37,306 nucleotides of DNA from a virus. Shown here one piece after another: positions 3,079 through 35,055 of this stretch. The stretch covers positions 1-37,306 of the IMG/VR virus record IMGVR_UViG_3300031331_000005; one strand, written 5' to 3'. Positions within the stretch are counted from its first letter, which is position 1; each line of letters opens with the position of its first letter. Both the position numbers and the translations under genes were made by a program. The notes beneath the pieces were generated by a model, which was not told the DNA's origin, made no database searches, and saw only the letters and a program-made list of their open reading frames with translations.

Positions 3079-3780
3079 TTAACGATAGCTTTTTCTACGA
3101 CGCTGGAATCTTTGGCGAACGCCTACATCAACACGTTCCACCAACATCTGAACCTGATACATCAATGACTTCGAGTCACGATCATAATTTCCATACAGCC
3201 GTTTTTCCAGCATACTCGCCAATCGGAACGCTCGCTCAGAACTAGCATACTCGAATGCGGCTCCAACGGCAAGAACTTTATGAATCAGCGGATTGATAAC
3301 AGGCAAGTCGTCATCTTCGGAGAGATCCGTCACATCCGAAATAATTTCCGCAAACAGCCCACCCGTTACATCTTCCGTCGGAATAGGATATAGGTAAATT
3401 GCATTCCCGAATAACCTATACCCGGGCAACGTTGTTGACACTTCGGCGAGTGATCCATTCTGAATCGCTTCCGTATCGATCTCTTTATCATCGATGCGAT
3501 GGCAAAGAACATAATCATTGTCCGCGTCGTATTTTACCTCCAGCCTATTCAACGCAACAAGATCCGAAGGGAACGCATACTTCGCAACACTTTCGGACAG
3601 GTTCCATTCCACCGTATCACCCTTGAATTCCCACGTCCCCATAGCCTCAAAAACCCATCCTGTGACCTCTCGATACCATTCGTTGATAGCTGCATCCAGG
3701 CTGGCGTCCGGCCAACCTGAAACCGTCAAATCTTTTGATACCAGTCGCCTGGCACTATCACGGAGATTATCTAAAGTCAT
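3079..3780 (-). CDS. Putative head-tail connector/adaptor protein
   Basis: 233 residues. The order is a helical N-terminus with tryptophans (SGWPDASLDAAINEWYREV), a middle part with YAFPSDLVALNRLEVKYD, then a strand pair RLFGNAIYLYPIPTED and a C-terminal helical region. The 'G..I.LYPIP' strand is common in podovirus-type adaptor proteins that bind below the portal, and the gene sits downstream of capsid genes as expected. It starts at ATG 3780 with no SD. The C-terminus is very basic (QRRRKSYR). It could also be another head-completion protein. Confidence 0.6.
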   Translation of the reverse strand: MTLDNLRDSARRLVSKDLTVSGWPDASLDAAINEWYREVTGWVFEAMGTWEFKGDTVEWNLSESVAKYAFPSDLVALNRLEVKYDADNDYVLCHRIDDKEIDTEAIQNGSLAEVSTTLPGYRLFGNAIYLYPIPTEDVTGGLFAEIISDVTDLSEDDDLPVINPLIHKVLAVGAAFEYASSERAFRLASMLEKRLYGNYDRDSKSLMYQVQMLVERVDVGVRQRFQRRRKSYR

Positions 3781-3825
3781 ATCCGATCATCCCGCCCTTG
3801 AAAAGAGCGGGATTCGGGACATGCC

Positions 3826-4326
3826 TTACAAGGACTCACCCCAGTTTTCGCAGTTTGCCGAAAGGTTGACGTAGGTGTCCGTAAGATGTGCTGCACTGAG
3901 CTCATCTGTACTCGCGTTAAAGTCGGTTGATCCGGCAGCGACAGCGATACGGACGTACCCAATGCACGCGTACCCTTCCGGCGTTTCCGGAACCTCGGCG
4001 TTTCCGGAACCCGAAGCCTCCGTTCCCTTGTACAGAGAGGCGGTACCATCCTCATCAACAAGAACGAGATAGACCGCTTCCCGGATGACGTTGGCATCGG
4101 CTTCGATGTCATCATCCGTAGCTGTGAACGCGACCTCTGCCGCCGTTACTTGGAACATCTTGCCCTTTACACTCACGTCAGTGTTGTTCGAGATCTTCAC
4201 CTTTGCCGCCGCACTGGAACCGATGGCAAGGTTCGGATACGTATGGCACATGTTCTTAACGGCATTGATCAGTCCGTTCAACTGCTTAGAGGCAATGCCC
4301 GGAGGTCTGATTTCTGGATTAGACAT
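3826..4326 (-). CDS. Putative virion protein, possibly head fibre/decoration
   Basis: 166 residues, Ala/Thr/Asp-rich, no membrane segment. Its middle reads as beta strands: a start like KVKISNNTDVSVKGK, then VYLVLVDEDGTASLYKG, then ACIGYVRIAVAAGSTDFNA. This 'strand, value, strand' texture is typical of phage head-fibre or decoration proteins. Gene order supports a capsid role: capsid gene, acidic protein, this gene, connector. I do not recognise a specific family. Confidence 0.6.
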   Translation of the reverse strand: MSNPEIRPPGIASKQLNGLINAVKNMCHTYPNLAIGSSAAAKVKISNNTDVSVKGKMFQVTAAEVAFTATDDDIEADANVIREAVYLVLVDEDGTASLYKGTEASGSGNAEVPETPEGYACIGYVRIAVAAGSTDFNASTDELSAAHLTDTYVNLSANCENWGESL

Positions 4327-4396: not shown

Positions 4397-5137
4397 TTAG
4401 AACGCAGCGATCAGCTCATCGTACTTCGGATGGCCAGCGAACAGCGTGTGTTCCAGGAATGCGGCAACCGGAGCAGGGACCATGACCGTCCGTCCCATTG
4501 GAATAACGAACACAAGACCGTTGATCTGAAACTCTTGAACGCGGACTTTCGGATTGAACGGATCCGCCGGAATGACCGTTGATACAAGCCTCGCTTCGGC
4601 GAACTTTTCGCGAACGCGACGCGCTTTCGGTCCTTCGGTTTTCCTTCCAATCTTCTTAACGATACGGAGATCACCGAAAGCATACGACTTCAAAGGATCG
4701 ACAACATCCGCTTTATTCGAGGACTTCTTAGAGGACGTTTTCTTTGCCTTTGATGCGGATGCCGGCTTCCCTTTTTTCTTTTTGGCCGGCTTCCCTTTTT
4801 TCTTTTTGGCCGGCTTCCCCCTTTTCTTTTTGGCCGACTCATCATCTTCTTCGTCCACCGCATCCTCATCTTCATCAAGAGACTCTTCGTCTCCTTCGGA
4901 CTCTTCGTCCCCTTCGGACTCTTCGTCCCCTTCGGACTCTTCGTCCCCTTCGGACTCTTCGTCCCCTTCGGACTCTTCGTCCCCTTCGGACTCTTCGTCC
5001 CCTACATCCTCATCTTCATCAAGAGACTCTTCCTCGTCAAAAGTCTCTTCATCGGAAGTTTCCTCATCGGACACGTCCCCTACATCCTCATCGAGCTGGT
5101 CGAGATCCTCGTCCTCCATCTCATTTTTCTTAGGCAT
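4397..5137 (-). CDS. Capsid-module protein with acidic and lysine-rich low-complexity blocks
   Basis: 246 residues in three parts. Residues ~1-100 are nearly all Asp/Glu/Ser and include a tandem SEGDEE hexapeptide. Next comes a Lys block with three GKPAKKKK-type octads. The globular C-terminus contains VQEFQINGLVFVIPMGRTVM and ends in a PVAAFLEHT helix. That last part resembles a small protein often encoded next to the major capsid gene in podoviruses (a 'ING..F.IP.G..V.VP.PV' pattern). Segregated negative and positive charge may bind capsid and DNA. The low-complexity parts are built from DNA tandem repeats and may vary in copy number. Confidence 0.7.
   Translation of the reverse strand: MPKKNEMEDEDLDQLDEDVGDVSDEETSDEETFDEEESLDEDEDVGDEESEGDEESEGDEESEGDEESEGDEESEGDEESEGDEESLDEDEDAVDEEDDESAKKKRGKPAKKKKGKPAKKKKGKPASASKAKKTSSKKSSNKADVVDPLKSYAFGDLRIVKKIGRKTEGPKARRVREKFAEARLVSTVIPADPFNPKVRVQEFQINGLVFVIPMGRTVMVPAPVAAFLEHTLFAGHPKYDELIAAF
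4762..4833. repeat. Three tandem 24-bp repeats (Lys-rich block)
   Basis: Units at 4762-4785, 4786-4809 and 4810-4833, nearly identical. Read on the minus strand they encode the KKKKGKPA octads of the acidic/basic capsid-module protein. Confidence 0.9.
4881..5003. repeat. Six 18-bp tandem repeats plus partial copy
   Basis: Units of GACTCTTCGTCCCCTTCG begin at 4881, 4899, 4917, 4935, 4953 and 4971, with a partial seventh at 4989; the first differs by one base. Each encodes SEGDEE on the minus strand. Being a multiple of three, gain or loss of units keeps the frame. Confidence 0.95.
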
Positions 5138-6263: not shown

Positions 6264-6989
6264 TTACTCGCGCGCGTTCTGACGGCGCAGGCGCTCCTGC
6301 TTCATCTCTTCCGAAGTCGCGCCGCTCCAGTCTTTGCGCTTGCTCTTGACAGATCCGGGACGATAGCTTCCGGTGGGTGCGGATGCCTTATCCACGGCTG
6401 CTTTCTTTTTTGCTCGTCGAATCATGGATTTAACGAGACTATCCTTCGCTGCTTCGCGTAGGGAGATGCCCTTCGCGCGCGCATATGCCTCAATCTGGTC
6501 AACGGTCTTAGTTTTTAAGTCGGGATAGTCAAAACGGAAATCGCTGCGTTCCCGATCATAGCGCGCTTCGTCGCCATCATCGGCAGAATTCTGTTTTCCC
6601 TTTTGACTCTTCTTGGAGCCCTTTTTCTCCAAAGCTTCAATGCGCCGCTTAAGATCATCACGTTCTTGTTCTGCGCTTTCACGCTTTTTCTTGTGATGCT
6701 TGCGCTGCGCATTCACTTGACGAAACTTGTCCGGCGTAACGTCGGCGTCCTCGATATCATCGAGATCGTCGTCGTCTTCGTCGTCCTCATCGTCGTCGTC
6801 TTCATCCCCATCGCCGTCTTCATCATCCTCATCATCTTCATCGTCATCGTCGTCCTCATCGTCGCCAACGGGAATGTTGAACTTCTTACACTGCTCTCGC
6901 GTGAGGTTGAACGTGTTCTTTACTAAAAATGCACGCTCTGCCTCTGTAATCTTAGTAGGGTCCTTTGCAAGGATTTCATTGAGATTCAT
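6264..6989 (-). CDS. Capsid scaffolding protein
   Basis: 241 residues. An N-terminal segment is followed by an almost pure Asp/Glu run (about residues 43-80), then a charged coiled-coil (KHHKKKRESAEQERDDLKRR) and a basic C-terminus. Location immediately before the major capsid gene plus an acidic, helical, low-hydrophobicity make-up fits an internal scaffold that leaves or is cleaved after shell assembly. No protease motif is seen. The start at 6989 is preceded by AAAGACT, not a real SD. Confidence 0.75.
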   Translation of the reverse strand: MNLNEILAKDPTKITEAERAFLVKNTFNLTREQCKKFNIPVGDDEDDDDDEDDEDDEDGDGDEDDDDEDDEDDDDLDDIEDADVTPDKFRQVNAQRKHHKKKRESAEQERDDLKRRIEALEKKGSKKSQKGKQNSADDGDEARYDRERSDFRFDYPDLKTKTVDQIEAYARAKGISLREAAKDSLVKSMIRRAKKKAAVDKASAPTGSYRPGSVKSKRKDWSGATSEEMKQERLRRQNARE

Positions 6990-23879: not shown

Positions 23880-23997
23880 AGCAGATGCGAAACGCATTGC
23901 CGTCATCGAGCTGTATGTACTGATGCACGGAGGCGCTCACCGCATTCGTGCACGCAGCATTGATCTTGCTGCTAGTTTTCCGGACGTGATCTCATAG
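23800..23997 (+). CDS. Small hypothetical protein with perfect Shine-Dalgarno
   Basis: 65 residues from GTG 23800. AAGGAGGTGA sits a few bases upstream, inside the preceding gene, and is the only full-strength SD I found in the window. The protein is beta-strand rich (VVLKNRVRVTVLKVPPAHIP) and has no recognised family. It ends directly before the large structured RNA region. Confidence 0.65.
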   Translation: MTQVVLKNRVRVTVLKVPPAHIPLLVEADAKRIAVIELYVLMHGGAHRIRARSIDLAASFPDVIS

Positions 23998-24011
23998 CAC
24001 TTTACGTATCT

Positions 24012-24102
24012 CGAGAGGAGATTTGACATCTCCTCTCCCCTCTATCGCTCCGGAACGATGAACCAGGAATATTTCCGAAGCGATAGAGGGGCACATTGCC
24101 CC
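24012..24102 (+). ncRNA. Three consecutive 5' hairpins of the structured RNA
   Basis: GAGAGGAGAT/ATCTCCTCTC with a 5-base loop (24012-24038); CCCCTCTATCGCT...AGCGATAGAGGGG closing a longer arm (24037-24092); GGGGC..GCCCC (24088-24102), which shares bases with the second and so may switch with it. No T-run follows, so they do not form a usual terminator for the genes upstream. Confidence 0.65.
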
Positions 24103-24168
24103 TCAGTACACGTTCCTTCTCAGTTGTTTGATTAGGCAGGCACGAGTCCATGAAGCTCTCTCGTGCCT

Positions 24169-24244
24169 CGCCTCGAGATACTGATAACGGTTGCGGCCGG
24201 AAACTCCGCAGAGTAGGGCCTTTCCCTTTCAGTATCTTTAGGCG
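24169..24244 (+). ncRNA. RNA arm 1 with pseudoknot
   Basis: Outer stem 24169-24184 with 24229-24244, 15 of 16 positions paired. Inside, TGCGG (24192-24196) pairs CCGCA (24206-24210), while GGAAA (24199-24203) pairs TTTCC (24221-24225); the two helices cross. Confidence 0.65.
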
Positions 24245-24448
24245 GGGTGCACTGAAAGTTAGATCGGCAAAGGGCTGCTGGTTTAACCGGATCCGCTATA
24301 GACGGCGCTAGCCCACCCATTGCAACTGATCCCTGACAATGGAGAGCCAAAACCATATTGAAGGATCGAAAAGCGAGAGAACCTGCCATCCAGTGAAACG
24401 TCCGAGGAATTAAATTGCCTTGGCTATAGTCGTCACTGGATGGCCTCT

Positions 24449-24545
24449 CGCCTCCACTTCGTTCGTGTGAGCTGGCCGTTCGGCGACCAGATGCCGTCTT
24501 CTTCGGGGGATGGGTTTGCTACTCGACATGAGCGGAGTGAAGGCG
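24449..24545 (+). ncRNA. RNA arm 2 with 20-position outer stem and UUCG hairpin
   Basis: 24449-24468 pairs with 24526-24545 with a single mismatch. Inside are a CTGG/CCAG hairpin stacked on GCC/GGC and a C(TTCG)G tetraloop near 24501-24506. Confidence 0.7.
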
Positions 24546-24586
24546 GGAAATGGAACCCGCGTACATAAACTTATCTAACTCTTAAT

Positions 24587-24674
24587 CTGGTCACAATATG
24601 TAGATACACACATGAGATTTCAACACATTAAAAATTCATAGCGAGGGTAAGATGTGACCAGTCTTGCCCCTCGC
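24587..24674 (+). ncRNA. H-type pseudoknot with two long stems
   Basis: CTGGTCACA (24587-24595) pairs perfectly with TGTGACCAG (24653-24661). GCGAGGGTAAG (24641-24651) pairs with CTTGCCCCTCGC (24663-24674). The order a-b-a'-b' crosses, with only one or two bases between helices, so they can stack end to end. Confidence 0.7.
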
Positions 24675-24751
24675 CTCGAAGTGGTGAGAAAAGACGGACG
24701 ATCGTGATGACAAAACCGTCCGAGTAGGTCACGGCTCACTGCTTCAAGGCG
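24672..24751 (+). ncRNA. RNA arm 3 with pseudoknot
   Basis: Outer stem 24672-24688 with 24735-24751. Inside GACGG (24693-24697)/CCGTC (24716-24720) and CGTGA (24703-24707)/TCACG (24729-24733) cross. Followed directly by the GAAA-capped hairpin 24749-24760. Confidence 0.65.
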
Positions 24752-24782
24752 GGAAACCGCAGACGAGTAAGGAGATTGAGTG
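24747..24782 (+). repeat. 36-bp exact direct repeat, copy 1
   Basis: Spans the end of arm 3, the GCGG-GAAA-CCGC hairpin, ACGAGTAA and the 5' acceptor strand. Identical to 25021-25056, 274 bases downstream. A 19-base exact repeat (24902-24920 and 25149-25167) covers the 3' acceptor strand and next CGCCT, so a whole module appears duplicated while loops diverged. Confidence 0.9.
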
Positions 24783-24912
24783 GCGGAATAGGTAGACGCT
24801 ACGAGCCGTACAGGCTTTCGGGGTCTTACAGGCGGTGAAGTGACTCCTGAGCTACTAAACCCGAATTTGGAGCCGTTTGTCATGCGAGGTGCAAATCCTC
24901 GCCTCAATCTTC
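24771..24912 (+). ncRNA. tRNA-like domain 1 (Leu-type D arm, no normal anticodon arm)
   Basis: GGAGATTGAG (24771-24780) pairs with CTCAATCTTC (24903-24912), a 10-bp acceptor-like stem. Next is TGGCGGAATAGGTAGACGC (24781-24799), identical in form to a tRNA-Leu D arm with its GG. The T arm GCGAGG/CCTCGC holds the loop TGCAAAT (24890-24896), where position 55 is G instead of T. About 85 bases replace the anticodon and variable arms, including TTCGGG/CCCGAA pairing. It is 142 bases long, too long for a tRNA, and no 5-bp/7-base anticodon arm with U33 could be drawn. Confidence 0.7.
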
Positions 24913-24915
24913 TCT

Positions 24916-25025
24916 CGCCTCATGGGTACAACATCCGAGTATACCGGACAGATAAGCCCCACCCCATATATGCACGTCTAGGGAGTGGGAGAAGAAGCGA
25001 GACGTGCCGTTGTATCCAGCAGGCG
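24916..25025 (+). ncRNA. RNA arm 4 with pseudoknot
   Basis: Outer stem 24916-24932 with 25009-25025, 15 of 17 paired. Inside, CCCCACCCC (24957-24965) pairs GGGAGTGGG (24981-24989) with a bulge, and GCACGTCT (24972-24979) pairs perfectly with AGACGTGC (25000-25007); the helices cross. Confidence 0.7.
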
Positions 25026-25056
25026 GGAAACCGCAGACGAGTAAGGAGATTGAGTG
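25021..25056 (+). repeat. 36-bp exact direct repeat, copy 2
   Basis: Partner of 24747-24782, in front of tRNA-like domain 2. Confidence 0.9.
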
Positions 25057-25159
25057 ACAGCAGAATGGTATTGCTGTGCCAGCTATATCCTAGGACTGGT
25101 AGGCCGAAGCCCCGTGCACGGGGTGGGGTCATGCAAGTTCGAATCCTGCCTCAATCTTC
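25045..25159 (+). ncRNA. tRNA-like domain 2 (canonical T loop, odd anticodon region)
   Basis: The same acceptor-like stem GGAGATTGAG/CTCAATCTTC (25045-25054, 25150-25159). D arm ACAGC-AGAATGGTATT-GCTGT (25057-25077). T arm GCAAG-TTCGAAT-CCTGC (25133-25149) with one A-C mismatch. In the anticodon place GCCAG/CTGGT closes a 13-base loop instead of 7, and a long variable-type hairpin CCCCGTGCACGGGG (25110-25123) follows. The elbow sequences could form, but decoding seems unlikely. Confidence 0.7.
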
Positions 25160-25196
25160 TCTCGCCTTTGCTTCACTCAACACGAGCGGAGCGAAG

Positions 25197-25700
25197 ATGA
25201 GAATTATGCAAAAATACCCTCTAATCCTCGATGTGTGTTGCGGCGGCCGCACGTTCTGGTTCAATAAGCACGACCCCCGAGCTCTATTCTTAGATAATCG
25301 TGTATTTCCAAAGCAGGTCATCTGGGAAAAAGGGGATCAGCAGAGACTCTTTGAAGTGAAGCCGGATAAGATCATGGACTTCCGCGATCTCGAGCTCGCC
25401 TCAAATACATTCAAGCTCGTTGTTTTCGATCCACCGCATATATTAAAACGAAACGGGAAGACTGGATGGATGGGAAAGAAGTATGGCTCATTGAATAAAG
25501 AAACGTGGCAGGACGATATCCGCAAGGGATTCTCTGAGTGTTTCCGCGTTCTGCAAAAAGAAGGGGTGCTGATATTCAAGTGGTCGGAAATAGAGATCCC
25601 GCTCCGTAAAATACTTGAGCTCACGGATGAAAAACCTTTATTTGGCCACAAGAGCGGAAAGAACAGCAAGACGCACTGGATAGCATTCATAAAATCCTAA
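25197..25700 (+). CDS. Class I SAM-dependent methyltransferase
   Basis: 167 residues from ATG 25197, with GGAG five bases upstream (25188-25191). The frame is open back to 24840, but that part lies in the structured RNA. Motif I DVCCGGRTFWF (12-22) binds SAM; motif IV FDPPH (77-81) is a DPP(Y/H)-type catalytic loop as in N6-adenine or N4-cytosine amino-methylases. Short phage relatives modify DNA, but RNA as target cannot be excluded given its place after the RNA. Target unknown. Confidence 0.8.
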   Translation: MRIMQKYPLILDVCCGGRTFWFNKHDPRALFLDNRVFPKQVIWEKGDQQRLFEVKPDKIMDFRDLELASNTFKLVVFDPPHILKRNGKTGWMGKKYGSLNKETWQDDIRKGFSECFRVLQKEGVLIFKWSEIEIPLRKILELTDEKPLFGHKSGKNSKTHWIAFIKS

Positions 25701-29694: not shown

Positions 29695-29839
29695 CACGGA
29701 AAAAAAAGAGTGCCCTGAGTGTCATGCACTCATTTATTTCTATCCTGTCGGCTATACGAATGCGGACGGTGAATGGGAATACGATCACATGGAGTGCCCT
29801 GTCTGCGGCTACGTTGCATCTTCCGAGGACACTGGTTAG
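29681..29839 (+). CDS. Small zinc-ribbon protein
   Basis: 52 residues with CPEC (11-14) and CPVCGY (39-44), a standard four-cysteine zinc ribbon. It overlaps the resolvase gene by 14 bases. It is the last plus-strand gene; its TAG shares bases with the TAA of the convergent 1739-residue gene. Confidence 0.65.
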   Translation: MKIPDTEKKECPECHALIYFYPVGYTNADGEWEYDHMECPVCGYVASSEDTG

Positions 29840-32800
29840 CGCTTACGGCGCTTGCGTTTTTCATTTTTCGCGGCCCAAGCGTCTTTCATTCCCTCGAATG
29901 GCGTAAGCATCATATCCGATACGCCCAGGGCACGCGTCGCTGTTCGGAGCAGATAGAACGTCCCTTCGTCAAAATCCCCTGACGCGAATTGTTGCGCTGC
30001 TCGTTGGATACCTTCTGAAAAAACATTCAGCGTGACCCCTGGACGAAATTCGTAATTTTTCCCCATCAAGACATTCTGCAGAATGGTATTGATAAAATCT
30101 CCGATGAGGAAGAATCCCGTGGCTTGTTCTGTCATCGCGATCGCCGATCCCATCGCAGCCTCATGAAGCTTGAACACGCTCGTGGCCCGCTTTCGCGTTT
30201 CCTCCGCTTTCTCCTTTTCTCCCATGGCTTCCGTTACGGCCGCTTTAACCATCTTGCCCGGGACGCTCGCGCCAGCACGCAACCAGTAGAACAGGAGCCC
30301 CTGCAGGAACACGGTGTACCCGATATATTTTGTCGCCTGCGTCTTTGTCAGCCGTCCGTCGCGCATGAGGCGCACCGCATCGATCATGCTGCTCGCAATC
30401 TTCATGTTCTGCTGCGTCAATTCCGCAAAGAATTTTGTTCCCGCTTCCTGCGAGAATCGCGGCTTGCCGATAAACGTCATATCCGGCTGCGTACGGAGGA
30501 TAACGGAATTAACGACCTCGCCGGCGCGCACGTATGCGTCCTTTTCCGACATGCCCTCGCGTCCATATTTGCGCACCAATCCCCAAAAGATGCCGGACGC
30601 GCCGCGCATGTTGACGTACTGGTCCGCTGGTTCCGTTGTGAGGCGCATCCCGAGATCCGCTGTTGATTTGATCTTACGCACTGTCCAGTGTTTACTAGGC
30701 CGCTCTGAAATTTCCGATACGGGACGCAGCCGGCGGAGTCGTAGGACGTTTACGTGTTTCTCTAAAATCTGACGACGAGACTTGTTCCAGCGGTTTCGTA
30801 ATCCCCACTCGTAATCTCTTAACGGAATATTCATTGATCCCGATTCCGCTCGATATTGCGCGTTCGCGGAAAACTGCCCAACAGCAACACGGACATTCGA
30901 GAGGATGCCCTTGAACAAGGCGTTACTCAACTGGTCGACGCCCGTCGGATTCCATTGATCCTTACCGCTCTTCACACGACCGCCTCCGGTCAAGTTTTCC
31001 GTATGCCAGTCAACGGTTTCAAGAAACGCTTTTCCGTATTTCGTCTCCATCGCTCCGCGGAAGTCTTTGTCTCGAATAATCGCATTCAGATCCGTGAGAT
31101 CTTTTGCCGTCTGCTCATACCATGTCGCGCGTTGCACGTACCGGCGGTATTCCTGAAACGGGTCAACGAGCTTCAACGCGGAGAATACGCGAGGATCCGT
31201 CCGACGAACCATGCCCGGATCAATGGAAACGCTGTACTGTTTTAGATCATTCAGTCCGGATTCAGCGAATCCCGCAACACCTCGGTCATCTATGTGCATG
31301 CCTTCGTCGTGCATAGGGCCGGCGTATCGCTCCCGATACCCGAGCGGCACGCCGCTACGCTCTTCAAAGACCGGTGCGAGCTTGTCCCATAAGGGCGCGT
31401 ATCCGTTGTCAATGAGCCACGTCCCCATCTGCTTATCTTCGGGCTTCAAGAGATCGTAGACAGCTTCCCTGATTTCGGGCGTCCACGTATTCCCGCGCGT
31501 GATCCGTTCGCTTCCGACCTTCGTCTGGTCATACATCCACATCGCAAGCGCGTTGTTGCGGCTCACGCGTACGGCAATATCTTCCCCTTTCGTGTTCTTA
31601 AAAACGCCAAGATCGTGAACCGGTTCCATATCGATCTGCGCATGGATCCACTTCTTTTCGCTCCCATACAATTCGGTTCCGGTCTTTTGAAATCGCTCCA
31701 TGTAGTCCGTATATTCGATTAAAGCATCGATACCTTTTCTTGAAACGCGGTCTACCAGCTGTTCAAATCTTCCACCAACGCGCCGAGCGATCGCCTGGTA
31801 CGCAGAATGGTTGTTCAAATACCCGCGAAGCTTCTCGCGCCAATTACTCGCCGCCTTGGCGGGATCGATACGCGTTTCAAGCGGACGCGTCGGAGAATTG
31901 TACACTTCTTCAACGATTTCTTTCGTCACCTCGTTTTGTCGCGCGCGCCGCGCATCGATCATCTCGTTCCGCTTCGTCTTCCCTTCCGTGACATAGGACT
32001 GGATCGTTTCGAGCGTGTAGCGCAACTGCGGCAACGTTTGATCTTTCATGCCGCCAAGATTCAACAAATCGATCTGCCGCGCGATCTCTTCGGGCATCTC
32101 ATACGAAGCCTCACCAGATGCACGCTGCATCTCGTCCGCTTTTCGCGTTAATTCCACCATGCGCCTGTTCACCTCCGCTCGATCCATGCTCACGTATTCC
32201 CTGACAGCATCGATGCGCGCCTGATGTTCCGCCGTCAGCTTCCCGCGCGGCAGCCCCGCCCGGAGAGCGACCTTCGCGTTCTGCAGTGTTTTCTTTATCT
32301 TTTTCTGCAATCGTTTCCGTTCAAACGTATTCCACTTCGCGCGGACATCATCAATGATCTCCGCCGCACGTTCGGCGTCTTTGACATTTTTCAACTTGAC
32401 CAAAAAACTTCCGCGCACTTCTTTTGGAACACGGTTCTCGCGCATGAAGTCAACGAGAATCTGTTGAGCAGCCGCCTTGTTATTGAACTTCTGTCGCAGC
32501 CTGGCTTTCGCACGTTCCGCGGACTGCTTGAGAAAAGCCCGTTCGAGTGTCTCTTTAACCTTGCGGCGCGACAGGGAGGTTTTCTGCTTTTCCTCCATGC
32601 GCTTCCGATCGGCCTTTCGCAGATTCTTCTGCCGGTCAACGGCCGTTTCTCGCTTTTCTTGCCGGCGCTTTATTTCCTGCTCCACGGTTTCGCGAGCCTT
32701 GCGCTCTGCCTTTGTCTCGCGTGGCAAGGCTTCATTTTCTGATTTGGCGCGGCTCAACTCTTGCCGGATCATTCGTTCTTTATTCAATCGCTCGCGGAAC

Positions 32801-35055
32801 GCATCGAGCACCTTGTCCGAATCAGGGAGATTCTCGATAGCCCGTTCCGCACGCTGCCGTCGCAGGATCTCTGCACCTGTTGCCGTGCGGCCGCGCATCA
32901 CGCGCTCGCGTTCCTTCATATCTCCGCGCAGCCGTGAACTCAATCCTGCCACATCCATTTCCTCGAGCTCGGGCGTTCGTGAGACGCGACGCTTCCAATC
33001 TTTGTACTGCTCCTCTCTGCGCTCTTCAAATTTCAAATTTTCACGTTCCGTCTTTAAACGTTCTCGCGTCTCCTTATACCGCTGTTCCGTCTCCCGCCGT
33101 GCGATAACACGATCCGCCATATCCTCTGCGCGCTGCTGGAGCTCTTCCGTGGCCGCTCGCTTGATCGTTTTCGGCTTCGGAGTGTTCTCGAAAATATATC
33201 GTTCAGCCCGGTCCTCGAGATCCCGACGGATAGCGTCAAGCTCTGACTGGTTCTGCGCTTTTTCCGCTTCACGAATACGGTTCAAATCATCTGGCGTGAT
33301 CGTTTTCACGTGCGCCTCTTCATGGACCATAATCGTTTCCTTATATCGCTTCATGAGATCGCTTGGACGCTCTCCGGTCTTAGCCGTAAACGTTCGCTTA
33401 CGCTTGCCTCCGACAACGATCGTGTCGCCATTGAGGAGCTTGGAAACATCTTGCGCGATCACAGGATCATTGAAAACGATTTCTCCGGTCGCTGAATCAA
33501 AATATGCCGGACGATCATCGTACACATCGTCAACGTGCCGCGTCTTAATTTCCGACTTCGGATCGTCCTTTTGGATCGCTTCAATGATTTCACGTTCAAA
33601 CGCATATTGCGTAACAGGATCTTCAAGCTCGGCCGCCATGCGCTTTGTTCGGGACGATACCGGCGTTTCGAGGACCGCTTCAATTTTTCCGACCTCTTGC
33701 ACCGCTTCACCGAAAGACTGCGCCTGATCTGCAAGCTGGACAGCCCGAGACATCTTATCGCCCCATGTGGCCGCCCATTGTGGCCGTAGAGCAGAGTTAT
33801 CCTTGATTTGGGCATAAGAGGACAAGAGACGCTCTGAAACGCTTAGAGCCTCAATTTTGGAGCGTGAGGCCATATCGTCAATAACCTCGTAATCCTTGAC
33901 TTTCTGACGATATTTTTCTTTGATCTCCGAGACAGTCGCTTTTTGGGGATCTTTAACGCCAAGCATGTCCCCGGCAGTCTTGAGTGTGTCCTTAATCGTC
34001 ATGCGTTCCTGAATGACAGACCGGCCTTTTCCTACAGCTTTGCCCGCTCCGTGGAACGCGAGGATGATCGCGCCCAGGCCGGCCATCTCCTTAATCGAAT
34101 CGAGCTCCTCCGGCGTCGCATTCGGATTAACGAGTCCGTAGCTCCCTGCAGCGATCGATCCGCCGGCGGCCTGAATGGATCCGAAAACGTTCTGCTCGAC
34201 AGCCTCTGCCCCATGTTCTCCGGCCTTTCTCCCTTTTTCCCCGCCAACAGTCGCACCGGCAAGTCCTCCGATCTCGGGCATAGCGGACATCGCCTGGAGC
34301 ATTAAAAATCCACCGGTTAGGTTGATCGCGTTTTCAAATGCTGACGGTGCAAGCGAAAAAAACTGTTCCCGCTCCGTCTCCTTTGTCGATGCTTCCTTAA
34401 TCGCTCCCCCTGCCCGCTGAAAGGTTTGGATGATGTTATCTGCCACGCCTCCGACGAAACGCACGGCGGCGTTCACCGTCGATCCGGACGGTTGAAAAGG
34501 AACGCCGACAACAGGAGTATTTTCTTTTTGTTGCGGTGCATCTTTTCGGAAATCCCGAAGAGACGTTGTGATGCTTCGCATGGACGAAAAAAAGTGTTCA
34601 ACATTGTCGCTCGCTTCAAGCACGTCTTTGTTAATGCGTCCAATCTCTTTGTACGCCTCAATCTGCTCGCGTGTCTTTGGGTGATATGCCGTGGAGAGCG
34701 ATGAAATGACTGCATGCTCCTTTTTCAAGCGATCAATCGTACTCTCTTCCAGGGCGCTTTTTCGAGGCCCCTGGCCAACAGGGCCAACCGGTTCCTTTGG
34801 AGACGGTTCCGTCTTTGACTTCCGAAACGCGAACTTTGATTTGATATCTTCCGCTGCCTGTCGAGGTGACTTGCTGGATGCAACCTTGCTGGGTGCCGCC
34901 TTACCGCCGCCAATCCGTCCATTGATAATCGACGAAATTTCGTCGAGTGACTTTCGACTTCCCGTTTGATTCAATGTAGGCGACGGAATGTTACTTCCGC
35001 CGCCAATCCGTCCATTGATAATCGACGAAATTTCGTCGAGTGACTTTCGAGGCAT
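29836..35055 (-). CDS. Giant polyvalent virion protein with zincin motif
   Basis: 1739 residues. In order: a duplicated peptide RKSLDEISSIINGRIGGG (3-20 and 34-51); a Gly/Ala hydrophobic region (~240-330); a J-domain-like helix set, KDTLKTAGDMLGVKDPQKAT then IKEKYRQKVKDY (~350-400) without HPD; a zinc-peptidase motif H578-E-E-A-H582 after AYFDSATGEIVFND; long Arg/Glu coiled coils (~620-1000); and a C-terminal part with a membrane-like helix near 1585 and a basic tail KRKRRKR. Such giant multi-domain proteins are packed in podovirus heads and injected with the DNA. Peptidase activity is inferred from HExxH only. The start at 35055 lies 9 bases from the previous stop. Confidence 0.8.
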   Translation of the reverse strand: MPRKSLDEISSIINGRIGGGSNIPSPTLNQTGSRKSLDEISSIINGRIGGGKAAPSKVASSKSPRQAAEDIKSKFAFRKSKTEPSPKEPVGPVGQGPRKSALEESTIDRLKKEHAVISSLSTAYHPKTREQIEAYKEIGRINKDVLEASDNVEHFFSSMRSITTSLRDFRKDAPQQKENTPVVGVPFQPSGSTVNAAVRFVGGVADNIIQTFQRAGGAIKEASTKETEREQFFSLAPSAFENAINLTGGFLMLQAMSAMPEIGGLAGATVGGEKGRKAGEHGAEAVEQNVFGSIQAAGGSIAAGSYGLVNPNATPEELDSIKEMAGLGAIILAFHGAGKAVGKGRSVIQERMTIKDTLKTAGDMLGVKDPQKATVSEIKEKYRQKVKDYEVIDDMASRSKIEALSVSERLLSSYAQIKDNSALRPQWAATWGDKMSRAVQLADQAQSFGEAVQEVGKIEAVLETPVSSRTKRMAAELEDPVTQYAFEREIIEAIQKDDPKSEIKTRHVDDVYDDRPAYFDSATGEIVFNDPVIAQDVSKLLNGDTIVVGGKRKRTFTAKTGERPSDLMKRYKETIMVHEEAHVKTITPDDLNRIREAEKAQNQSELDAIRRDLEDRAERYIFENTPKPKTIKRAATEELQQRAEDMADRVIARRETEQRYKETRERLKTERENLKFEERREEQYKDWKRRVSRTPELEEMDVAGLSSRLRGDMKERERVMRGRTATGAEILRRQRAERAIENLPDSDKVLDAFRERLNKERMIRQELSRAKSENEALPRETKAERKARETVEQEIKRRQEKRETAVDRQKNLRKADRKRMEEKQKTSLSRRKVKETLERAFLKQSAERAKARLRQKFNNKAAAQQILVDFMRENRVPKEVRGSFLVKLKNVKDAERAAEIIDDVRAKWNTFERKRLQKKIKKTLQNAKVALRAGLPRGKLTAEHQARIDAVREYVSMDRAEVNRRMVELTRKADEMQRASGEASYEMPEEIARQIDLLNLGGMKDQTLPQLRYTLETIQSYVTEGKTKRNEMIDARRARQNEVTKEIVEEVYNSPTRPLETRIDPAKAASNWREKLRGYLNNHSAYQAIARRVGGRFEQLVDRVSRKGIDALIEYTDYMERFQKTGTELYGSEKKWIHAQIDMEPVHDLGVFKNTKGEDIAVRVSRNNALAMWMYDQTKVGSERITRGNTWTPEIREAVYDLLKPEDKQMGTWLIDNGYAPLWDKLAPVFEERSGVPLGYRERYAGPMHDEGMHIDDRGVAGFAESGLNDLKQYSVSIDPGMVRRTDPRVFSALKLVDPFQEYRRYVQRATWYEQTAKDLTDLNAIIRDKDFRGAMETKYGKAFLETVDWHTENLTGGGRVKSGKDQWNPTGVDQLSNALFKGILSNVRVAVGQFSANAQYRAESGSMNIPLRDYEWGLRNRWNKSRRQILEKHVNVLRLRRLRPVSEISERPSKHWTVRKIKSTADLGMRLTTEPADQYVNMRGASGIFWGLVRKYGREGMSEKDAYVRAGEVVNSVILRTQPDMTFIGKPRFSQEAGTKFFAELTQQNMKIASSMIDAVRLMRDGRLTKTQATKYIGYTVFLQGLLFYWLRAGASVPGKMVKAAVTEAMGEKEKAEETRKRATSVFKLHEAAMGSAIAMTEQATGFFLIGDFINTILQNVLMGKNYEFRPGVTLNVFSEGIQRAAQQFASGDFDEGTFYLLRTATRALGVSDMMLTPFEGMKDAWAAKNEKRKRRKR
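34904..34957. repeat. 54-bp perfect direct repeat, copy A, with 18-bp palindrome
   Basis: Identical to 34997-35050, offset 93 bp (31 codons). Contains the perfect palindrome TCGACGAAATTTCGTCGA at 34929-34946. Encodes the duplicated peptide near the start of the giant protein. Confidence 0.95.
34997..35050. repeat. 54-bp perfect direct repeat, copy B, with 18-bp palindrome
   Basis: Palindrome at 35022-35039. It lies at codons 2-20 of the giant gene, so as mRNA it would form hairpins close to the start codon. Confidence 0.95.

Follow-up and report, generated by a model that had tools for sequence, protein, structure and literature searches.

The window, i.e., the whole stretch of DNA analysed here, is a phage record of 37,306 bases from IMG/VR, whose capsid protein belongs to the phrog_1357 family. 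The nearest relatives of this protein among named phages, at ~35-38% identity, are encoded by Bacillus megaterium phages and by a phage contig from the human gut; the primase and terminase matches are remote only, and single-protein queries with the exonuclease, helicase and capsid returned no relatives. The early genes for primase, helicase and exonuclease lie on the + strand, in a run that breaks at 23998 and resumes with a methyltransferase ORF. The region in between is bounded by a small ORF on its 5' side (stop at 23997) and by the methyltransferase ORF on its 3' side (ATG at 25197). The first-pass annotation had described it as a gene-free stretch of 1.2 kb, and no convincing reading frame is indeed found, the three + frames of 24005-25196 holding 15, 20 and 17 stop codons. 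No terminator-like site was found 3' of the structured region, and the sole promoter-like site found lies on the - strand, none of the region's own being found on the + strand. Elsewhere in the window, a 1739-aa ORF (29836-35055, - strand) has no Pfam match at E 0.01.

24005-25196, + strand: candidate composite structured noncoding RNA region (fold z-scores; no Rfam or ARAGORN match; no convincing frame)
25170-25192 (within 25170-25211), + strand: terminal hairpin over the likely Shine-Dalgarno GGAG of the methyltransferase ORF (sequence and fold)
25197-25700, + strand: DNA methyltransferase ORF, as context (phrog_954, E 1.4e-66; likely start ATG 25197)

On the + strand, 24211-25205 folds to -377.6 kcal/mol, compared to -330.6 ± 9.9 kcal/mol for shuffled sequences (z -4.77), and none of 20 shuffles is as low. 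The - strand reaches z -3.93, again with 0/20 shuffles as low, so that the structure is indeed stronger on the gene-sense strand, where it had been placed at first. In 200-nt windows of the + strand, from 23951 to ~25150, local z is -5.1, -3.8, -4.4, -2.2, -1.4, -1.1, -2.8 and -2.8, whereas most values in the coding neighbours of 24005-25196 lie between -2.3 and +1.4, mostly near zero.

When the region was scanned against Rfam 15, no match was obtained at the gathering score (GOLLD, ROOL, tmRNA, introns and tRNA included). Only a chance-level snoRNA match appeared at E up to 10, and ARAGORN called no tRNA. As ROOL is found in loci L241 and L242 by the same search, the negative ROOL test of the window works. 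Blastn retrieved no relative of the 1.2 kb as a whole from phages, where only a 23-nt D-arm match appeared, or from plasmids, and exact 20-mers in viral contigs and exact 25-mers in genome contigs gave no whole-region relative either. Covariation is therefore testable for the tRNA-like module only (see below), and a single RNA over the 1.2 kb is a tentative reading.

The chain of A and B stems

The following stems and hairpins lie outside the tRNA-like domains.

24013-24037, + strand: hairpin GAGAGGAGA..UCUCCUCUC (sequence and fold)
24037-24091, + strand: long hairpin, 18/19 paired (24037-24055/24073-24091; stem search)
24139-24167, + strand: A1 hairpin GGCACGAG..CUCGUGCC
24169-24244, + strand: B1 stem, CGCCU/AGGCG closing, inner run of 10 bp
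24373-24451, + strand: A2 stem GCGAGAG..CUCUCGC with GCCAUCCAGUGA/UCACUGGAUGGC, 12/12 paired (24385-24396/24433-24444)
24449-24545, + strand: B2 stem, inner run of 14 bp
24641-24674, + strand: A3 stem GCGAGGG..CCCUCGC
24672-24751, + strand: B3 stem, inner run of 11 bp
24749-24760, + strand: GCGG-GAAA-CCGC tetraloop hairpin, rival of the B3 3' arm (fold probability 0.9)
24916-25025, + strand: B4 stem, inner run of 10 bp

The long near-perfect stems of the first-pass annotation are recovered with slightly different ratios, as the 18/19 and 12/12 stems listed above, 24166-24184/24229-24247 (16/19 paired) and 24006-24020/24167-24181 (13/15 paired). The GNRA and UUCG loops are also there, the former in two copies of the GCGG-GAAA-CCGC hairpin. 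The helices that had been described as crossing fit better as alternatives that exclude one another, and no pseudoknot is demonstrated.

A and B stems alternate, joined by recurrent CUCGCCU and AGGCGGG arms, and two of the A positions are occupied by tRNA-like domains. Between the B stems are found A stems with CUCGC ends, together with the GCGG-GAAA-CCGC hairpins. The repeated CGCCT...AGGCG arms noticed at first are far above chance, CTCGCCT occurring in 6 copies and AGGCGGG in 4, against ~0.11 expected for each in dinucleotide shuffles. Five CTCGCCT alternate with the four AGGCGGG on the + strand, and the sixth lies in the T arm of the first tRNA-like domain. All four B stems open with CGCCU/AGGCG and differ in their inner helices, each strand of which fits its own partner only: the longest run is 10, 14, 11 and 10 pairs for cognate strands, compared to 2-7 for swapped ones. 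Outside the tRNA-like domains, structural support is thus paralogous, coming from four B stems within one molecule.

The folding energy is -474.9 kcal/mol in the B register, -477.2 when left free and -440.2 in the alternative register, in which each AGGCGGG pairs with the next CUCGCCU. Enforcing all four B stems therefore costs 2.3 of 477 kcal/mol and the alternative register 37; the latter, ~35 kcal/mol worse than the B register, was rejected. The CUCGCCU/AGGCGGG pairing includes one G-U at a constant place. On the other strand this position would read C-A, a mismatch, which favours an RNA on the + strand.

Two other motifs were followed beyond the region. A gapped pattern built on AGGCGGGAAACCGC matched 12 stretches, about the chance expectation, of which two are tRNA-Ser variable arms and the rest look unrelated. 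The variable arm of tRNA-Ser in loci L018 and L024, GCAGGCGGGAAACCGCCTCGAG, resembles the AGGCGGGAAACCGC hairpin of the window, a likeness that is probably convergent. AGGCGG..CCGC motifs were considered as marks of the same chassis near other tRNA-like domains and rejected, since 8 were counted against 3 on the opposite strand, mostly in the window itself.

The tRNA-like domains TLS1 and TLS2

24747-24782, + strand: 36-nt exact direct repeat, copy 1 (TLS1 5' flank and acceptor)
24774-24909, + strand: TLS1, tRNA-Leu-like, with D arm 24783-24799, shrunken anticodon-position hairpin 24803-24817 and T arm 24884-24902 (descriptor, fold, family covariation)
24901-24920, + strand: 20-nt exact direct repeat, copy 1 (TLS1 3' flank)
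25021-25056, + strand: 36-nt exact direct repeat, copy 2 (TLS2 5' flank and acceptor), with GAAA hairpin 25023-25034
25048-25156, + strand: TLS2, with D arm 25057-25077, anticodon-position hairpin 25079-25099, variable-arm-like helix 25102-25130 and T arm 25133-25149
25148-25167, + strand: 20-nt exact direct repeat, copy 2 (TLS2 3' flank)

The embedded tRNA-like domains suspected at first pass are real. In both TLS1 and TLS2, acceptor, D and T arms follow one another in tRNA order and spacing, and the acceptor strands, flush with the T stem, are complementary at 7/7. TLS1 is composed of a 7-bp acceptor, UG, a D arm GCG-GAAUAGGUAGA-CGC, a small hairpin (loop GUACA) and a 6-bp T arm with loop UGCAAAU, the T stem being flush with the acceptor in a 13-bp stack. 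TLS2 shares the acceptor of TLS1 and continues with a D arm of 5 bp (loop AGAAUGGUAUU), a hairpin (loop UAUCC), a helix at the variable-arm position and a T arm with loop UUCGAAU, in which 4/5 stem pairs are formed and one is an A-C mismatch. By inspection, the anticodon position holds only these 5-nt loops, GUACA in TLS1 and UAUCC in TLS2, with no 7-nt loop on a 5-bp stem; both domains are thus predicted to be incompetent for decoding.

The unconstrained fold prefers other pairings around TLS1, giving its acceptor a pair probability of 0.02; enforcing TLS and B pairs together costs only 9 of 477 kcal/mol. The variable-arm strands of TLS1, ACAGGCGG/CCGUUUGU, are pairable with a fold probability of 0.01, and in TLS2 a helix GGCC/GGUC appears once TLS and B pairs are imposed on the fold.

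The interiors of TLS1 and TLS2 are unrelated and their 36- and 20-nt flanks are identical. This suggests either that cassettes have been swapped in a fixed chassis or that the flanks have been homogenised by recombination (gene conversion).

A family of related domains in phages

Among 80 capsid-relative loci obtained by a capsid alignment search, 49 records were searched for TLS, and the first homologue was found in L113 (also in L184). In one contig, the match to TLS1 covers both its D arm (20/20) and its T arm (92%), with acceptor and T stem changed complementarily. The T-arm pattern TCATGNNNGGTGCAAATCCNNNC matches at least 120 stretches in viral contigs and, among the matches listed, a Leu-type D arm is present at most 260 nt upstream of 89 of 115 distinct T-arm matches. 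The 7-nt arms, again among the matches listed and without selection on acceptor complementarity, are complementary at 7/7 in 72/88 and at 6/7 in 13/88, compared to 4.6% at 7/7 for shuffled partners. For 54 distinct sequences among the matches listed, all prefiltered to have 6/7 or 7/7 acceptor pairs, covariation scores 0.718, compared to 0.182 after shuffling and 0.05-0.15 (maximum 0.151) after sliding; every acceptor pair changes on both sides in this set, and the T-stem pairs covary too. The covariation in homologues that the first-pass annotation had proposed to look for is thus very strong for the TLS module, and no homologue was found on which to look for it over the whole region.

More than 50 distinct acceptor sequences occur in the family. 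At least 6 pairs are formed by a helix just before the AU and the T stem in 44/69 cases (14.2 ± 3.4 by permutation), and the variable-arm-position helix typically begins ~10 nt after the D arm. A broader descriptor of the TLS retrieves 119 domains, ordinary tRNAs included, versus 0 in reversed sequence. Judging from these patterns, the acceptor, D and T arms of the family are in all probability kept under selection. Its members look like descendants of class-II tRNA-Leu whose anticodon arm has been lost or shrunken and which, for this reason, would be unable to decode; L235 holds forms with features intermediate between tRNA-Leu and TLS. In 60/88 family members among the matches listed, the acceptor is followed by an A, so that charging by LeuRS via A73 was rejected as a strict identity rule. 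In some TLS inserts of L161, L183, L197, L199, L203 and L234, a second T-arm-like hairpin (e.g., GGGTTCGATTCCC) is present, as if a tRNA were nested.

The D arm of TLS1 is identical to the family consensus UGGCGGAAUAGGUAGACGC, and its T arm has the 6-bp stem and UGCAAAU loop by which the family is recognised. TLS2 has neither and departs from the consensus in both arms. Scans of the family loci show that Rfam models do not contain the TLS, and no published description of the family was found by phrase or by sequence motif, in a search of mainly open-access journal papers, so that a prior description is possible. TLS1 thus belongs to a widespread, apparently uncatalogued phage RNA family.

BLAST of TLS1 against named phages returned 135 records, and nearly all come from phages of Enterococcus, Bacillus, Listeria, Leuconostoc and Lactobacillus; lone short D-arm matches among them may be ordinary tRNA-Leu. 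The exact T arm is found in 13 genome contigs, all from Bacillota. Full TLS with a 7/7 acceptor are present in SPP1, Listeria LP-101, Enterococcus 21C1, LP65, Brochothrix BtpYZU01 and Bacillus Goe27, and no RNA annotation of the TLS was found in the phage records examined. In SPP1 (L237, X89721), the unannotated TLS (2497-2605, 7/7 acceptor) lies between gene 9 and the scaffold gene 11, and in Listeria LP-101 it lies between a RinA-family gene and the downstream genes. The neighbourhoods of the relatives contain noncoding RNAs (ROOL, tmRNA, rliG, rli62 and mcrA RNA). In Enterococcus 21C1 (L240), the TLS (2495-2623) directly follows the phage tmRNA gene (Rfam 2145-2495) in a tRNA island; in Lactobacillus 8014-B2 and LP65, ROOL shares the tRNA island with the TLS; and in Listeria phages the TLS is flanked by rliG or rli62 and by mcrA RNA.

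Three of these neighbourhoods call for separate mention. In L175 (~6418-6786), L170 and L153, the end of the Rfam rliG match falls at or inside the TLS 5' part, and the sRNA rliG may continue into the TLS. Both rliG and rli62 come from prophage A118, and rliG is among the sRNAs up-regulated inside macrophages (PMC3556495). In L207, ~850 nt (3337-4180) are strongly structured and largely ORF-free, with local z down to -4.7. This stretch follows an ORF that resembles an ArpU-type regulator and precedes a TLS (4584-4725). Neither Rfam nor blastn in phages gave a match to it, and it could be a separate giant RNA. Finally, a long noncoding stretch downstream of the TLS of L147 (- strand, 1740-1970) carries two copies of one 10-bp hairpin, GCCACTAGG..CCTAGTGGC, with TAGGGTAGCA after it.

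Possible roles and comparison with known RNAs

Our preferred reading, to which we give a probability of roughly 0.6, is that 24005-25196 is a composite structured noncoding scaffold RNA transcribed with the early operon, its 1.2 kb presumably acting as one folded RNA. The proposal of a new giant RNA class, made at first pass, holds as far as RNA-level structure and the lack of an Rfam match are concerned; a single giant RNA, or a class, is not established, no whole-region homologue having been found. The RNA would be made as part of the early operon transcript, because no promoter or terminator of its own was found. The TLS seem to keep the features that are read by tRNA enzymes (acceptor/T stack and D arm), minus the anticodon, and with the anticodon missing and the other tRNA features kept, they are likely to have a partner that does not read the anticodon. 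The tRNA-like domains could thus be stable modules on the scaffold, recognised by host RNase P, CCA-adding enzyme and LeuRS. The first two would fit as partners. LeuRS needs no anticodon and hence would fit as well, a fit weakened because only about two thirds of the family have A after the acceptor. The whole RNA might be a functional analogue of the GOLLD and ROOL RNAs that phages keep beside tRNA islands.

The alternative that survives best, although we hold it to be rather unlikely, is an island of separate small RNAs, in which the operon transcript would be cut at TLS1 and TLS2 by RNase P and 3' tRNA processing, the other stems being individual hairpins or stabilisers. The two domains would then punctuate processing, a role that tRNAs have in other polycistronic transcripts. 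It is in line with the position of the TLS in relatives, where they stand alone between genes (SPP1, Listeria LP-101) or in tRNA islands, and the window region has no promoter or terminator of its own. However, the acceptor helices in the window run on into the flank with extra pairs, which makes TLS1 and TLS2 look like integral parts of a larger fold, and the chassis around them is repeated and includes B stems that share one architecture. This suggests one assembly, and the scaffold RNA is therefore preferred over simple processing sites.

Much less probable is a cis-acting leader that would control translation or transcript stability of the methyltransferase gene. The ORF at 25197 has its likely Shine-Dalgarno within the last hairpin, but a length of 1.2 kb with two tRNA mimics far exceeds what is needed, and 0/7 methyltransferase relatives found have the RNA beside them. 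A cis effect of this terminal hairpin (25170-25211) on the ORF is in itself possible.

It is very improbable that the region is a decayed tRNA cluster, with TLS1 and TLS2 as pseudogenes and the remainder as debris. The shrunken anticodon arms, the G at T-loop position 55 of TLS1 and the silence of ARAGORN would be expected from decay; the arms of the family, however, covary strongly across its distinct acceptors, unlike under random decay, which disfavours this reading at the family level, and all four B stems are intact. The least credible alternative is an element acting as DNA (replication or packaging hairpins, or recombination sites), for although hairpins form on both strands and the repeated arms make inverted repeats, the fixed-place G-U pairs favour a + strand RNA, the tRNA-like modules have sense orientation and folding is better on the + strand.

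Beyond the scaffold RNA preferred here, we put forward, tentatively and at well below even odds, a giant phage RNA class built from interchangeable tRNA-mimic cassettes in a repeated chassis. It would draw on an unrecognised, widespread family of anticodon-less tRNA-Leu mimics of Bacillota phages, which host tRNA enzymes might bind or charge while they take no part in decoding. The stretch thus adds to the large phage RNAs a candidate with no match to GOLLD or ROOL and with two putatively non-decoding tRNA mimics; it is the TLS family, rather than the giant RNA, that is the more general finding. As this family is present in well-studied, culturable phages (SPP1, phi3T), as well as in Listeria A118-like loci, deletion, processing and aminoacylation are open to direct testing. 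If RNase P, LeuRS or the CCA enzyme bind its members, this would be a non-translational use of the tRNA shape across Bacillota phages, one that tRNA finders and Rfam 15 would have missed.

Among known RNAs, tmRNA has a tRNA-like end domain in which a helix replaces the anticodon arm, as in the TLS. The window has no RF00023 match, though this model finds the tmRNA of L240, and the TLS differs in keeping a paired Leu-type D arm. In staphylococci, a non-translational tRNA-Gly used for the cell wall has a T-loop that departs from UUCRANY and is kept out of translation; it is of another tRNA type and has an intact anticodon arm. Class-II tRNA-Leu has the acceptor, UG, GCGGAAUAGGUAGACGC D arm, AU and T arm in common with the TLS, whose putative helix before the AU resembles its variable arm, and a phage tRNA-Leu in L234 has the same order of variable arm, AU and T arm. 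The TLS differs by the absence of a 7-nt anticodon loop, by its 6-bp T stem and by its T-loop UGCAAAU, and neither RF00005 nor ARAGORN called a tRNA at TLS1 or TLS2.

GOLLD and ROOL are giant phage RNAs, often near tRNAs, for which we know of no function; their kind is marked by RNA-only multimeric cages. ROOL (RF03087) adjoins tRNA islands and is near a TLS in 8014-B2 and LP65, but the window has no sequence or structure match to RF03087. GOLLD is likewise a very large, ornate phage RNA near tRNAs, whose linkers sometimes contain tRNAs (PMC12286853); the window has no match to its Rfam model (at gathering score or at E up to 10), and its tRNA-like domains, apparently unable to decode, are set in repeated stem modules. 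The region is thus best read as GOLLD- and ROOL-like in its setting and unrelated to both in sequence.
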